Shown here piece after piece: positions 1,976 through 48,352 of a stretch of 64,000 nt of DNA (positions are counted from its first letter, which is position 1; every line of letters begins with the position of its first letter). The stretch spans positions 1-64,000 of IMG/VR virus record IMGVR_UViG_3300021440_000021, one strand, 5' to 3'. The position numbers and the translations under genes were made by a program. The stretch comes from a virus. A model generated the notes under the pieces. It did no database searches, was not told the origin of the DNA, and saw only the letters and a list, made by a program, of their open reading frames with translations.

Positions 1976-2621
1976 GTTAATTGCTCTCACTCAACCAATC
2001 ATCCCTGTCCCCTCCGATAACACGGAGGGGCTTATTGCCTACTGTGCTCGTGTTAGTAACCCGGCTAATCAAGATAACGAAGATGTAGAGAAGCTCCTGT
2101 CATATTGCATTAGAAATAAACATTGGTCTATTTTTGAAATGGCTAATGCCGTAGTGGAAGTGCAAGCCCCTAGAGACATCACTCGACAGCTTCTTCGTCA
2201 CAGAAGCTTCTCTTTTCAAGAGTTTAGTCAAAGGTATAGCTCTGACATTCAATTCACTGAAAGAGAGTTTAGACGCCAAGATAGAAAGAATAGACAAAAT
2301 TCTGTCGATGACCTCCCAGAGAATGTCCAAAATCTCTGTGATCATTACACAGCCTCTGTTATGAATAGTGCATCTTTTGCTTACGATGAAATGATTATCA
2401 ACAATGTAGCAAAAGAATGTGCAAGAGTGGTCCTTCCCGAAGGTCTAACTATGTCTCGTCTCTATGTCAATGGCACTCTACGCTCATGGATTCACTATCT
2501 TGAAATTAGAGATGATCCCGGAGTGACACAATGGGAACATGTCGTTATGGCCCGTAAAATTAAAGAAGTCTTGCTTCCTGCTTTTCCAATTATCTTAGGT
2601 ATGCTAGATGACAAAAACTAA
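1959..2621 (+). CDS. thyX: FAD-dependent thymidylate synthase ThyX
   Basis: ThyX makes dTMP from dUMP using methylene-tetrahydrofolate, FAD and NADPH. The diagnostic RHRxxSxxxxSxR motif is present at residues 80-92. The 220-residue length is normal for the family. ATG1959 with GAGG about 10 nt upstream gives the expected N-terminus; the longer in-frame start at 1944 lies in the preceding gene. It belongs to a nucleotide-supply cluster with MazG-like and NrdJ proteins. Confidence 0.95.
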   Translation: MKIEAKLIALTQPIIPVPSDNTEGLIAYCARVSNPANQDNEDVEKLLSYCIRNKHWSIFEMANAVVEVQAPRDITRQLLRHRSFSFQEFSQRYSSDIQFTEREFRRQDRKNRQNSVDDLPENVQNLCDHYTASVMNSASFAYDEMIINNVAKECARVVLPEGLTMSRLYVNGTLRSWIHYLEIRDDPGVTQWEHVVMARKIKEVLLPAFPIILGMLDDKN

Positions 2622-3144
2622 TGGACAATTTGAGAAAAGGCCCAGAGATTTCTATGTAACACCAGAGAAAGCCCTCTTACCTCTTCTCCCTCATCTACCA
2701 AAAGGGTTATCTTTTTGTGAGCCTTGTGCGGGAAATGGGGAATTAGTCAACATGTTGGAAGAACATCTAGAAGCTTCTTGCTTTCTCCCTTTAGATATTG
2801 AGCCACAAGTTGATTGGGTTGTAAAGGGAGATGCAGGGGTTTTGAATGAAGAACAACTTCTATTCTGTGAATGGATCATCACCAATCCTCCGTTCACTTG
2901 GTCTGTTCTAGCCCCACTGATGAAATTGTGGATTAGCCTACGTCCTACAGCACTGTTGCTTCCAGCAGATTTTATGCACAATAAGAGGTTTGCTCCATTT
3001 TTAAATGATTGCACAGACATCATTTCTATTGGACGGGTGAAATGGATTGAAGAAAGTAAAGCCACTGGCGTAGAAAACTATTGCTGGTACATTTTTAACA
3101 AAAACAACAAAGAGGCGACAAAGTTTTATGGCAGAGATTATTAG
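2608..3144 (+). CDS. DNA methyltransferase-like protein
   Basis: A 178-residue SAM-dependent methyltransferase fold. Motif I is EPCAGNGE (residues 38-45), the acidic motif II is LDIE, and motif IV is NPPF (93-96), typical of N6-adenine or N4-cytosine DNA methyltransferases. There is no visible separate target-recognition domain and no partner nuclease, so it is probably an orphan enzyme protecting or marking phage DNA. It overlaps thyX by 14 nt and the next gene by 17 nt. Confidence 0.75.
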   Translation: MTKTNGQFEKRPRDFYVTPEKALLPLLPHLPKGLSFCEPCAGNGELVNMLEEHLEASCFLPLDIEPQVDWVVKGDAGVLNEEQLLFCEWIITNPPFTWSVLAPLMKLWISLRPTALLLPADFMHNKRFAPFLNDCTDIISIGRVKWIEESKATGVENYCWYIFNKNNKEATKFYGRDY

Positions 3145-40185: not shown

Positions 40186-40228
40186 ATCTCACACCAAATT
40201 ATGACAGGGAAACACAAGAGGGAAGATT

Positions 40229-40288
40229 ATGTCTATTCGTTATGAAATTGTTGCTCGCCTTGTTATGATTGGATTGTATAATGCTTAG
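40229..40288 (+). CDS. Leader micro-ORF coupled to the first dipeptide-repeat ORF
   Basis: A 19-codon ORF (MSIRYEIVARL...) with a very good AGAGGGA site. Its stop overlaps the start of the 40281 ORF (ATGCTTAG), which has no SD of its own. It therefore probably loads ribosomes onto the repeat ORF. The peptide itself may be without function. Confidence 0.4.
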   Translation: MSIRYEIVARLVMIGLYNA

Positions 40289-40475
40289 AGGGAAGAAACA
40301 AAAAACTGTTAGGTCTAGGTCTAGGTCTAAGGCTTGGTCTAGGTCTTGGTCTGGGTCTGGGTCTTGGTCTTGGTCTGGGTCTGGGTCTTGGTCTAGGTCT
40401 GGGTTTGGGTTTGGGTCTTGGTCTGGGGCTAGGTTTTGGTCTTGGTCTGGGTCTTGGTCTGAGTCTGAGTCTTGA
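40281..40475 (+). CDS. Ser-Arg/Trp/Gly dipeptide-repeat protein 1
   Basis: 64 residues: basic head MLRGKKQKTVRS, then an almost continuous (S-x) dipeptide repeat where x is R, W or G (SRSKAWSRSWSGSGSWSWS...). It is encoded by a degenerate GGTCTx hexamer array. It is paralogous to 40917-41108, sharing the head M-x-R-G-K-x-Q-K-x-V-R-S-R-S. The conserved head and start codon exist only in this frame, which is why I prefer it to the Leu-Gly, Arg-Pro or Asp-Leu frames. SR-like composition suggests nucleic-acid binding; unproven. Confidence 0.5.
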   Translation: MLRGKKQKTVRSRSRSKAWSRSWSGSGSWSWSGSGSWSRSGFGFGSWSGARFWSWSGSWSESES

Positions 40476-40488
40476 TCTTGGTCTAGGT
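40311..40488 (+). repeat. GGTCTx hexanucleotide array 1
   Basis: About 30 degenerate 6-nt units (AGGTCT, TGGTCT, GGGTCT) in tandem. It is not a CRISPR: units are contiguous without spacers. It codes for the Ser-x repeat. Confidence 0.9.
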
Positions 40489-40549
40489 AAAACATAACAG
40501 AAACAAACATCAACAAACACAATAACGTGTCAAACAATGGAGAAACGGA

Positions 40550-40813
40550 ATGAAAATCCTGCAAACTGTAATTGAAGAAGAGAAAGAAGGCTTTCTGGCT
40601 TTGATGGGCCAAACCATCACTGTCTATTGCATGAATTACATTTACACTGGCAAACTTGTCGGTGTAAATTCTGATCAAATCAAATTGGAAAATGCAAAGA
40701 TTGTGTATGAAACGGGTTCATTCAATTCCAAAGAGTGGAAAACTACTGAGGCTTTCCCTAATGACATTTACCTGCGCCACAGTGCAATTGAGATGTACAC
40801 CATTCTGAAATAA
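40550..40813 (+). CDS. Hypothetical protein, possible Sm-like small barrel, 87 aa
   Basis: Sequence FLALMGQTITVYCMNYIYTGKLVGVNSDQIKLENAKIVYETG has the alternating hydrophobic pattern and G-K-L-V-G-V turn seen in small Sm/KOW-like barrels. GGAGAAACGG precedes ATG40550. It lies between the two repeat ORFs. A fold guess only. Confidence 0.65.
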   Translation: MKILQTVIEEEKEGFLALMGQTITVYCMNYIYTGKLVGVNSDQIKLENAKIVYETGSFNSKEWKTTEAFPNDIYLRHSAIEMYTILK

Positions 40814-40916
40814 AACTTGGGGTCAAATCTGCGGTAAGGGCCGTTTGTGTAAAAGCATTCTTCACAAACAAACTTGTTTGTGAATGTGACGGCCACCTTT
40901 TTATAAGGATAAAACA

Positions 40917-41108
40917 ATGCCTAGAGGAAAGAGACAAAAAATTGTTAGGTCTAGGTCTGGGTCTAAATCTAGGTCTTGGTCTAGGTCTGGGTCTGGGGCT
41001 TGGTCTAAATCTAGGTCTTGGTCTTGGTCTAGGCCTTGGTCTAAGTCTGAGTCTAGGTCTTGGTCTTGGTCTAGGTCTGAGTCTTGGTCTTGGTCTAGGT
41101 CTTGGTGA
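40917..41108 (+). CDS. Ser-Arg/Trp/Gly dipeptide-repeat protein 2
   Basis: 63 residues: MPRGKRQKIVRS head and a (S-x) repeat with R, W, G, K and E (SRSGSKSRSWSRSGSG...). A strong AAGGA lies 9 nt upstream. Paralogue of 40281-40475, separated by one unrelated gene. Trp and Arg alternate with Ser, giving a basic aromatic polymer that could bind nucleic acid or phase-separate; this is speculation. Confidence 0.55.
   Translation: MPRGKRQKIVRSRSGSKSRSWSRSGSGAWSKSRSWSWSRPWSKSESRSWSWSRSESWSWSRSW
40947..41106 (+). repeat. GGTCTx hexanucleotide array 2
   Basis: About 26 tandem degenerate GGTCTx units coding for the second Ser-x repeat. The first about 40 bases (from the start codon into the array) closely match array 1, showing duplication followed by independent repeat drift. 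Confidence 0.9.
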
Positions 41109-41123
41109 GAAGGAAAAGAAATT

Positions 41124-41468
41124 ATGAAACATCTAATCAAATTGTTGGCCTGTTGCTTGCCTTTGCAAGCACAAGCTGAAACATGCAAATGGAGTGGGAT
41201 GTATGTTGACATTTCACCTACGCAAGAGGGGAATGTATCGGTTCATTTTCATAATGAGCTAACCTCTTCGTGGGGAGATTCCCCCTTCTATTGCATTGTC
41301 ACGATTGATGGAGAAATCTTTCGTGCTGTAATCACAGCGGGAAATGGTGAAATTCCCGACAACATTCTCATTGAACACCCTGTTGGATGGCAAGCTATGC
41401 CGGAACAAATTGACGTGAAAGAGGGGGATGATGGCTATTTGCTTGTCACCCCCATTCTCCTTGGATGA
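41124..41468 (+). CDS. Secreted/periplasmic hypothetical protein, 114 aa
   Basis: Signal peptide MKHLIKLLACCLPLQAQA with probable cleavage before ETCKWSG. The mature part is beta-rich with two cysteines (CKWSG and FYCIV), which could form a disulfide. A GAGAAGGAAAAG site precedes the ATG. Exported phage proteins of this type may act in superinfection exclusion; unknown here. Confidence 0.7.
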   Translation: MKHLIKLLACCLPLQAQAETCKWSGMYVDISPTQEGNVSVHFHNELTSSWGDSPFYCIVTIDGEIFRAVITAGNGEIPDNILIEHPVGWQAMPEQIDVKEGDDGYLLVTPILLG

Positions 41469-43433: not shown

Positions 43434-43466
43434 GCCCCCTTGGTGGAATTGGTAGACACAACAGAT
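43434..43466 (+). pseudogene. 5' half of a split tRNA-Leu(UAA)
   Basis: GCCCCCT acceptor, TG, the Leu-type D arm (GTGGAATTGGTAGACAC) and ACAGA of the anticodon stem, ending at the first loop base T43466. The missing 3' half lies at 44044-44093 and pairs exactly. From base 43467 the HNH cassette begins. Confidence 0.85.
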
Positions 43467-43897
43467 CAACTATTTTTCCTCCTCCTCCAAGTTGGAGTTT
43501 GTGAGTGACAATTTGGGCAAAGCAATAGTAAATTAGTTTTAGAATTATTATTTCTATTACCATCTATGTGTTCGAGTTCTAAGACTAATGGTCGATGTAG
43601 CCATAAAGATAACCCACAAACTTCACAGCTATTTCCACGGTCTTTTATAAGTCTCTTTTTAATTGAGGACGGCTTCGTTAGTTCTTCGTAAGAAACAAGT
43701 TCTTTACCCCTATTATGAGACTGACCTAAAAAATGAGAGGTGTCTATATTGAACTTATCTAAGTTCTTAATCAAGTTGTTGTAATTTCCTCCTGCGGCAA
43801 CTAATCCCATTTGTCGCAAACAATCAGCATAACTATTACTATTTTCGACTATAATTTTTAAAATTTCTCTGGTCCATCTTGTATATTTACGTTTCAT
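43466..43897 (-). CDS. HNH homing-type endonuclease inserted in tRNA-Leu
   Basis: A 143-residue protein. The N-terminal half (ENSNSYADCLRQMGL, GGNYNNLIKNLDKFNIDTSHFLGQ) matches the DNA-binding part of many phage HNH proteins; the catalytic part has CEVCG, LEHIDGNRNN and LLLLCPNCHSQ. It is antisense to the tRNAs and its stop codon touches the tRNA-Leu 5' half. ATG43897 follows CAAGGTT; ATG43930 would start inside the tRNA. It likely cuts a tRNA-Leu anticodon-loop site to spread the cassette. Confidence 0.85.
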   Translation of the reverse strand: MKRKYTRWTREILKIIVENSNSYADCLRQMGLVAAGGNYNNLIKNLDKFNIDTSHFLGQSHNRGKELVSYEELTKPSSIKKRLIKDRGNSCEVCGLSLWLHRPLVLELEHIDGNRNNNSKTNLLLLCPNCHSQTPTWRRRKNS

Positions 43898-43901
43898 AAT
43901 A

Positions 43902-44022
43902 TAACCTTGCGTATATAATAGTGGAGGCATAGCCCAATTGGCAGAGGCATCCGGTTTAAACCCGGTAAAGTTAGGGTTCGAATCCCTATGCCTCTACCAT
44001 TATATACGTAGAAACAAGGTTA
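43902..44022 (+). repeat. Inverted repeats enclosing the inserted tRNA
   Basis: TAACCTTG + CGTATATAAT (43902-43919) pair with ATTATATACG (43999-44008) + CAAGGTTA (44015-44022). The repeats continue into the tRNA acceptor stem with one mismatch, so the precursor could form a rod of about 30 bp with the tRNA at its head. May mark the cassette's mobile unit or guide processing. Confidence 0.8.
43923..43999 (+). tRNA. tRNA with UAA anticodon (Leu-decoding, short variable loop)
   Basis: Acceptor GGAGGCA/TGCCTCT (one G-U), D arm GCC/GGC, anticodon stem CCGG/CCGG with loop TTTAAAC, T arm TAGGG/TTCGAAT/CCCTA, discriminator A and encoded CCA. By position the anticodon is UAA, reading UUA (Leu). Unlike normal tRNA-Leu it has a short variable region, so the charged amino acid is not certain. 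It lies inside the HNH cassette that splits the canonical tRNA-Leu(UAA). Confidence 0.8.
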
Positions 44023-44043
44023 AAAAAGACAAACAATTAAAAA

Positions 44044-44093
44044 TAAAATCTGTCGATTAATTCATGCCGGTTCGAGTCCGGCAGGGGGCACCA
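44044..44093 (+). pseudogene. 3' half of a split tRNA-Leu(UAA)
   Basis: TAAAA of the anticodon loop, TCTGT stem, a 13-nt variable arm, T arm GCCGG/TTCGAGT/CCGGC, acceptor AGGGGGC, discriminator A and CCA. ACAGA/TCTGT and GCCCCCT/AGGGGGC pair perfectly with the 5' half. The two halves together give only a 6-nt loop (one T short), so restoring a normal tRNA by simple splicing looks unlikely. Confidence 0.85.
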
Positions 44094-44104
44094 AGTTAGA
44101 TGTG
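44089..44104 (+). repeat. 16-bp direct repeat, copy 1 of 2
   Basis: CACCAAGTTAGATGTG, including the CCA end of the tRNA-Leu 3' half. An identical copy lies at 44297-44312, after the CCA of the tRNA-like element, suggesting duplication of a tRNA unit. Confidence 0.85.
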
Positions 44105-44122
44105 TAGACAGAAATTGAGATT

Positions 44123-44209: not shown

Positions 44210-44301
44210 GTGAGGGGTAGAAAAGGCAGGGGGTGTGATGGTCACAACAACCAAAGCATGGACCCAATGCGCTCCGGGTGTAGAAAGACCCCCTCACACC
44301 A
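44210..44301 (+). ncRNA. tRNA-like element with CCA end
   Basis: GTGAGGGG (44210-44217) pairs perfectly with CCCCTCAC (44290-44297), followed by ACCA. Inside are TGTGA/TCACA, GCAT/ATGC and GGGT/ACCC hairpins, but no standard D or T loop. It is therefore a tRNA mimic or a heavily decayed tRNA. Its 3' end is followed by the second copy of the 16-bp repeat. Confidence 0.4.
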
Positions 44302-44312
44302 AGTTAGATGTG
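44297..44312 (+). repeat. 16-bp direct repeat, copy 2 of 2
   Basis: Identical to 44089-44104, 208 nt downstream. Confidence 0.85.
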
Positions 44313-44408
44313 AAGCGGTGAATGCTAAAGGTCATACCCGGCCTGAGTAACCGTAATTGAGGTCTCCACGGCAAGGAGTCTGGTGTGTCGAGTCGCACCC
44401 ACATCTAA
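44304..44408 (+). ncRNA. Folded RNA candidate closed by a 9-bp stem
   Basis: TTAGATGTG (44304-44312) pairs exactly with CACATCTAA (44400-44408). A GGTGTG/CGCACC hairpin with a TCGAGT loop near the 3' end and a CTCC/GGAG hairpin resemble T-arm and variable-arm pieces, but no full tRNA can be drawn. The element ends 26 nt before the next gene. Confidence 0.3.
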
Positions 44409-44433
44409 ATCATTAAGTAGAGAGGAAATAAAC

Positions 44434-47476: not shown

Positions 47477-48352
47477 ATGTCTGTATATATGCTTCGTCGT
47501 CGTAAACTTGGGCGCACCTCTTGCCGAGAGATTGCCCGTCTATCTGATAAGATTGATGGTGTTGTTCGTAATGATCAACAATTTCCTGCTGACCTTTCCA
47601 TGATTATTCGTTGGGGGACCACGAGTAATGTCCCTACGAATAATATTGTAAATACAGCAGAGGCTATTCATCGTGTTGGTGATAAGGCTGGATTTAGAAA
47701 TCTGCTGATGGATAATTTCTTTGAAGTTCAAGGTGGTCTTGGTTCTCCACTTTGTCCCATGACTTATTTAGAAATGCACAAACCACAACTTCTTTTGTGG
47801 ATGAGGGATGGAAAACAAATGGTTGTTCGACCTCGTGTCCACGCACAAGGCCGTCATGTTTACCTTGTCAACAATGAAGCAGAACTTAATGCAGCCATTG
47901 CTCGTTGTGGAGAGGGTTGGTATGCCTCTGAATATATCAACAAAGTGGCTGAATATCGTGTCACCTTCGTTCAAGGACGTGTTGCTTGGGTGGCCAAGAA
48001 AACTCCCGGTAATCCTCAAGATGTAGCTTGGAACGTAGCTCGTGGGGGACGCTTTGATAATGTTCGATTTGATAATTGGCCTTTGAAAGCAATTAAGATT
48101 AGCCGTGAAGCTTTCATGCTTTCTGGCTTAGATTTTGGTGCTGTTGATGTCATGGTTGATGCAGATGATCAGGCTTATGTACTTGAGATTAACTCAGCCC
48201 CATCTCAAACTTCCCCATATCGTCAAGAATGTATGGCCAAATGTTTTGACTATCTTATTGAGAATGGGAAAGAAACTATTCCTGTCATCCAACAACGTGG
48301 AAATTGGAAAAAGTTTATCCATCCGGCTTTGTCTAACGAAGCTTTAATGTAA
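47477..48352 (+). CDS. ATP-grasp ligase (RimK/YheC-like)
   Basis: 291 residues with an ATP-grasp core: KQMVVRPRVHAQGRHVYLV (nucleotide-binding Lys/Arg region), YASEYINKVAEYRVTFV, DFGAVDVMVDADDQAYVLEINSAPS (metal-binding Asp, Glu, Asn). ATP-grasp ligases join a carboxylate to an amine, often extending peptides. The gene heads the amidoligase module. AAGGAG precedes the ATG. Confidence 0.85.
   Translation: MSVYMLRRRKLGRTSCREIARLSDKIDGVVRNDQQFPADLSMIIRWGTTSNVPTNNIVNTAEAIHRVGDKAGFRNLLMDNFFEVQGGLGSPLCPMTYLEMHKPQLLLWMRDGKQMVVRPRVHAQGRHVYLVNNEAELNAAIARCGEGWYASEYINKVAEYRVTFVQGRVAWVAKKTPGNPQDVAWNVARGGRFDNVRFDNWPLKAIKISREAFMLSGLDFGAVDVMVDADDQAYVLEINSAPSQTSPYRQECMAKCFDYLIENGKETIPVIQQRGNWKKFIHPALSNEALM

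Follow-up and report, generated by a model that had tools for sequence, protein, structure and literature searches.

An HNH endonuclease gene and a complete tRNA-Leu(UAA) together interrupt a phage tRNA-Leu(UAA) gene in its anticodon loop

We report a viral class II tRNA-Leu(UAA) gene interrupted at 43465/44044, in its anticodon loop, by a 577-nt insert (43467..44043) that holds an HNH endonuclease gene in antisense and a complete class I tRNA-Leu(UAA). Coordinates refer to the window, the 64,000-nt stretch of DNA that was analysed, which is nearly all of a 64.6-kb virus record; the insert is 34.8% GC, compared to 42.2% for the window. The insert is probably a free-standing homing-endonuclease cassette whose targets are tRNA anticodon regions and which makes good the damage by supplying a cognate tRNA of its own. 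The same plan of break plus replacement occurs in phages and in bacteria, with Leu, Gln and His tRNAs, which suggests a route that selfish genes have taken repeatedly into tRNA genes without killing the carrier.

The 5' half of the broken gene (43434..43465, + strand) begins at 43434 with GCCCCCTTGGTGGAATTGGTAGACACAACAGA and comprises the acceptor strand GCCCCCT, the D-arm, and the 5' anticodon stem ACAGA. The gene resumes at 44044 (TAAAATCTGT...CGGTTCGAGTCCGGCAGGGGGCACCA), its 3' half (44044..44093, + strand) supplying the loop sequence TAAAA, the 3' anticodon stem TCTGT, a variable arm, the T-arm, the acceptor strand AGGGGGC, and ACCA. The halves pair at 7/7 positions of the acceptor stem and 5/5 of the anticodon stem, and the D-arm and T-arm consensus are both found. 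Run over the 64-kb window with introns allowed, ARAGORN calls a single split tRNA of 300-1000 nt, at 43434..44093, and makes no such call in 15 dinucleotide shuffles of the sequence; the split is non-random, and the initial annotation was right to recognize a single tRNA-Leu(UAA) divided in its anticodon loop. For both halves the most similar intact tRNAs carry leucine, and a tRNA-Leu(UAA) in locus L154 is the closest of them. Since the intact UAA relatives in L154, L073, and L259 have the anticodon loop CTTAAAA, a single loop base is absent at the window junction, as had also been proposed. The T at 43466 can be read either as loop base 32 or as the end of the HNH stop codon (TCA on the + strand, 43466-43468), and because it is common to the stop codon the left junction is ambiguous by 1-2 nt. 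An exact search for the 5' half in IMG/VR gave no match, and blastn of the region returned tRNA matches only.

The HNH gene occupies 43466..43897 on the − strand (coding 43469-43897, plus the stop codon, which abuts the 5' tRNA half); the likely start is the ATG at 43897, which gives a protein of 143 aa. An N-terminal helical module is followed by an HNH region with the pattern CxxC..H110..N122..CPNCH. The protein matches PHROG 10822 at 1.9e-40, a Pfam scan gave no match, and its AlphaFold model has a pLDDT of 89. The HNH and zinc residues H110, N122, H131, C91, C94, C127, and C130 are invariant across 42 relatives; the reading frame is a real gene whose catalytic and zinc residues are intact. 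The PHROG match, together with the ARAGORN and Rfam tRNA calls, bears out the contents first described for the insert. Searching by structure produced no PDB match at E <= 0.001. The best structural matches short of that cut-off were McrA for the whole chain, with poor superposition, and Cap5 and DotN for the HNH module; phmmer against PDB likewise gave no clear relative.

The carried tRNA (43923-43999, + strand), with anticodon UAA, is called by ARAGORN and scores 57.3 bits with Rfam; it has a short variable loop, discriminator A, and an encoded CCA. It is 77-85% identical to class I tRNA-Leu genes previously recorded in Felix O1-type and Enterococcus phages. Bacterial leucine tRNAs do not usually have a class I structure, which makes it uncertain that the carried tRNA is charged. 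UUA accounts for 19% of the Leu codons in this phage, and no Leu tRNA besides the broken and carried ones was seen in the window. The anticodon stem and loop flanks of the carried tRNA differ from those of the broken one. Relative to the intron-type target core GACTTAAAATC, the carried sequence GGTTTAAACCC differs at 4/11 positions, and the carried tRNA of a second locus, L023, at 2. The GACTTAAAATC core is kept in the tRNA-Leu(UAA) genes adjoining the HNH genes of the closest clade (L005-L007, L024, and L008), so it does not hold generally that the carried tRNA resists the enzyme.

The carried tRNA also lies within a hairpin in the HNH mRNA leader (43903..44021, − strand; arms 43903-43921 and 43998-44021), an inverted repeat around the antisense tRNA that pairs the HNH Shine-Dalgarno sequence CAAGG (-50.8 kcal/mol, z -6.1), which suggests that the two genes form a single unit. 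In L005 (2925-3010), L006 (451-536), and L007 (2930-3010) the HNH ribosome-binding site is likewise paired within a leader hairpin, whose stem contains TATAAATA and whose loop contains no tRNA; with TATAAATA, these three resemble the T4 late-promoter/hairpin switch of I-TevI. All four hairpins are reminiscent of the hairpin control under which I-TevI, segB, and mobE stand (PMC2988022).

Could the insert be an unrecognized intron, with splicing still joining the tRNA halves and the inserted tRNA merely additional? HNH relatives, which we took from IMG/VR, GTDB genomes, and GenBank phages, lend this some weight, as does the perfect pairing that both halves retain. Group I introns house about 17 other relatives, most of them at GACTT^AAAATC of tRNA-Leu(UAA), and the tabulated intron-borne relatives are at this site in 13/13 cases (group I-like introns of L015, L019, L022, L031, L033, L042, L045, L054, L062, L094, L186, L193, and L244). 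These 13 are mostly on phage contigs, with three in bacterial genome assemblies, and their HNH genes are found in both orientations; the L019 intron matches RF00028 at 33.9 bits (E 4.4e-5, below gathering). According to a review (PMC3984707), the phage introns observed up to 2014 were all in protein genes. However, only ∼70 nt of our insert lies outside the HNH gene and the tRNA, as compared to ∼190 nt for the smallest group I intron seen in a relative (L010), and one loop base is gone. Nor does Rfam match the insert to any group I or II intron at a threshold as loose as E <= 10, in keeping with the initial annotation; by the same search, the HNH gene is not inside a self-splicing intron or intein. 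We rejected the insert as an intron for want of any intron signature, and regard continued splicing as highly improbable. The accompanying statement that this is not the usual group I intron site holds only in part: the junction does fall 2-3 nt to the 5' side of GACTT^AAAATC, yet in the same loop, close HNH kin occupy precisely this position within group I introns, and the L023 sister element lies at it or within 1-2 bases.

Uninterrupted tRNA-Leu(UAA) genes, which the initial annotation had proposed looking for in sister phages, were found in two that we located through the ATP-grasp gene at 47477. L257 (76% identical) has an uninterrupted class I tRNA-Leu(UAA) that is syntenic with the window, lying in both between gene 43115 or its homologue on the one side and tRNA-Arg(UCU) next on the other; L259 has an intact class II tRNA-Leu(UAA) with the loop given above. 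The tRNAs of L257 and L259 are homologous and not identical to the broken one, and the search yielded no near-identical phage in which the site is empty.

We then define recurrence of the layout as an HNH gene enclosed between orphan 5' and 3' tRNA halves whose acceptor strands pair 7/7, and compare HNH loci with 928 control positions shifted by 1.1-1.4 kb. Such halves occur at 26/261 HNH loci versus 4/928 controls, and with a complete tRNA inside at 9/261 versus 0/928. The nine are the window, L023, L059, L287, L308, L306, L157, L180, and L150; L209, found by eye, makes a tenth. Identities of broken tRNAs were taken from the nearest intact tRNAs, because the anticodons ARAGORN assigns to split tRNAs (Phe, Stop, Ser, and others) are artefacts of loop reconstruction and were rejected; free rejoining of tRNA halves was uninformative, and L005 and L056 were discarded as chimaeras of two intact neighbours. 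Where the broken tRNA could be identified, the amino acid matches that of the carried tRNA in 8/8 cases, L209 included. A broken Leu is accompanied by a carried Leu in six (window, UAA; L023, UAA; L287, UAG; L059, CAG; L308, GAG; and L209, GAG, by eye), Gln by Gln in L306, and His by His in L157, whereas L180 (Gln inside) and L150 (Pro inside) give no clear match. In L150, an HNH gene and tRNA-Pro(UGG) at 2232-3096 lie in an apparent split class II tRNA, a possible mismatch of amino acids.

L023 is the closest parallel to the window, with an antisense HNH gene followed by a class I tRNA-Leu(UAA); both interrupt a class II tRNA-Leu(UAA), dividing its loop between CTTA and AAA. Layouts vary among the cases: the HNH gene is sense or antisense, and the tRNA may precede or follow it. 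On the HNH tree, the 10 break-plus-replacement rows require 10 label changes, i.e. they show no clustering, and this scatter points to repeated events or repeated survival rather than one frozen accident. A pattern search for an HNH C-terminus joined to a tRNA-Leu 5' half retrieved L087 (the same as L023), L094 (an intron case), and six chance matches.

It is conceivable that the HNH gene and the tRNA were inserted separately, by independent accidents, into a tRNA that was already dispensable, so that what remains is a pseudogene without any linked function. Phage tRNA arrays are hot spots of gene exchange, and several relatives retain a single remnant half (L024, L008, L132, and L154, which like L134 and L121 have only the 5' half left). 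Such accidents do not account for the absence of the layout from all 928 controls, the match in amino acid between broken and carried tRNAs, the embedding of the tRNA in the HNH leader hairpin, or the shared plan of L023 with its related class I tRNA, and we judge them improbable. In L121 (2400-3072), an old tRNA-Leu 5' half and the HNH gene are followed by a complete tRNA-Leu(CAG) with the same acceptor strand; judging from this arrangement, the tRNA there looks to have been restored through a partial duplication or a new 5' half.

The main rival to a selected replacement is passive co-conversion, in which the HNH enzyme cuts tRNA genes and the donor's neighbouring tRNA is carried along as an unselected passenger. 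That free-standing endonucleases co-convert flanking sequence is well established (review, PMC2988022). The neighbourhood of the family is moreover rich in leucine tRNAs: the nearest tRNA is Leu in 110/163 distinct HNH loci with a tRNA within 250 nt (67%), as compared to 94/622 of the more distant, background tRNAs, and Leu(UAA) is nearest in 30/163 versus 20/622 (p = 3.6e-10), so that most of the Leu/Leu matches are to be expected. Among the loci from bacterial genome assemblies in L175-L254, mainly of Actinomycetota, family HNH genes often directly adjoin tRNA-Leu(UAG). But a Leu-rich neighbourhood does not predict the Gln/Gln case of L306 or the His/His case of L157; a rough calculation from neighbourhood frequencies, with loci treated as independent, puts the eight matches together at ∼6e-5; and complete cognate tRNAs are kept while the broken halves decay. 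Hitch-hiking thus appears unlikely to us, if less so than either splicing or independent accidents. The homing element paying for its damage with its own tRNA, as suggested at the outset, gains support from the recurrence with Leu, Gln, and His tRNAs, from the controls, and from the uninterrupted genes of the sister phages. The association of the family with tRNA-Leu genes, its intron-borne kin at this loop, the leader hairpin around the tRNA, the want of an intron in the insert, and the use of UUA codons also speak for it.

Under the replacement reading, the cassette would have invaded a phage tRNA-Leu(UAA) gene at the anticodon loop. Where co-infecting phages have uninterrupted tRNA-Leu genes, the HNH protein would make a nick or cut in the anticodon-arm DNA, and repair of the break from the cassette-bearing genome would copy the cassette in. 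Insertion would destroy the resident tRNA, the halves presumably not being an intron-type splice substrate, and the carried class I tRNA-Leu(UAA) would supply the lost decoding function; we propose that carriers are for this reason not counter-selected. The sequences themselves show the anatomy, the intact nuclease motif, the recurrence, the match in amino acid, and the uninterrupted sister loci, whereas cleavage, homing, expression and charging of the carried tRNA, and death of the broken tRNA are what we infer. We propose as a class the same-amino-acid rescue cassette, consisting of orphan halves with 7/7 pairing and, inside them, an HNH gene and a cognate tRNA; this layout is found in the window, L023, L059, L287, L308, L306, L157, and, by eye, L209.

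A stronger reading is that this widespread family acts as a natural cleave-and-rescue drive, moving through the tRNA genes of phages and also of prophages or bacteria: HNH enzymes would destroy tRNA genes at the anticodon while linked to a cleavage-resistant tRNA for the same amino acid, leaving the host cassette-dependent, and would alternate this with RNA-level rescue by group I introns. We hold this tentatively, at somewhat less than an even chance. In synthetic cleave-and-rescue drives, which are engineered and CRISPR based, a nuclease inactivates a gene and a linked recoded copy rescues it. The likeness of the window cassette to these is an analogy of working, with no evolutionary relation.

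Among natural systems, we found no description, in openly licensed PMC papers, of an HNH gene and cognate tRNA splitting a tRNA gene. The free-standing homing endonuclease gene segB, of the GIY-YIG type, belongs to the T4/T6 tRNA region (Brok-Volchanskaya 2008, cited in PMC2988022; PMC13096335). Like the window cassette, it is a free-standing endonuclease gene in a phage tRNA cluster whose product cuts within tRNA genes; SegB drives inheritance or amplification of the tRNA region, and a hairpin over its ribosome-binding site controls translation. It differs in that the window protein is HNH and has no GIY-YIG domain, and in that segB lies between tRNA-Arg and tRNA-Ile genes, with no account found of a tRNA being split by it and replaced by another for the same amino acid. 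Group I introns are described from cyanobacterial tRNA-Leu(UAA), along with an endonuclease for the tRNA-fMet anticodon region (Bonocora & Shub 2001; both cited in PMC3984707). Intron-encoded anticodon-loop endonucleases share the target region of the window, and close HNH kin are encoded in group I introns at U34/A35 of tRNA-Leu(UAA); but these systems restore the tRNA by RNA splicing, whereas the window has no intron and a second gene restores function, if anything does. In its inferred working, tRNA-region homing, the window element is like SegB and like the intron-encoded anticodon-loop endonucleases, but with neither a GIY-YIG domain nor an intron it falls outside what defines either, and we class it as a new variety of free-standing HNH homing cassette.

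Insertions of mobA and mobE split T4 gene 60/39 and Aeh1 nrdA (PMC2988022), and there too an HNH gene is inserted at a functionally critical place of a host gene. In those cases the protein halves reassemble, which the split tRNA of the window is not known to do, a whole replacement copy being carried instead. For the integrase of Cluster J mycobacteriophages, the tRNA-Leu anticodon loop is the left end of attB (PMC3706429). Such integrases resemble the window cassette in targeting a tRNA anticodon loop while tRNA function is preserved; they are site-specific recombinases, in contrast to a nuclease cassette with an entire, different tRNA. As a rule, integrases that use tRNA att sites restore the 3' end alone.

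If the replacement reading is true, homing endonucleases would have a third means of inhabiting an important gene, the carrying of a whole replacement for it, besides self-splicing introns or inteins and tolerated gene splits. The replacement reading would also help explain why phage tRNA arrays are rich in HNH genes, in duplicate and odd (class I) leucine tRNAs, and in tRNA fragments, and would provide a natural counterpart to engineered drives that is testable in ordinary laboratory phages.

Two further features of the window may be recorded. At 44302-44411 is a tRNA-like fold with a 9-bp stem, TTAGATGTG/CACATCTAA (-40.3 kcal/mol, z -3.1), called by neither ARAGORN nor Rfam; a second copy of its arm sequence comes directly after the broken tRNA's CCA (44089-44107 versus 44297-44315). 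At 40199-41212 are low-complexity repeats; translated, their frames give runs of PRPRPR or DQDQDL.
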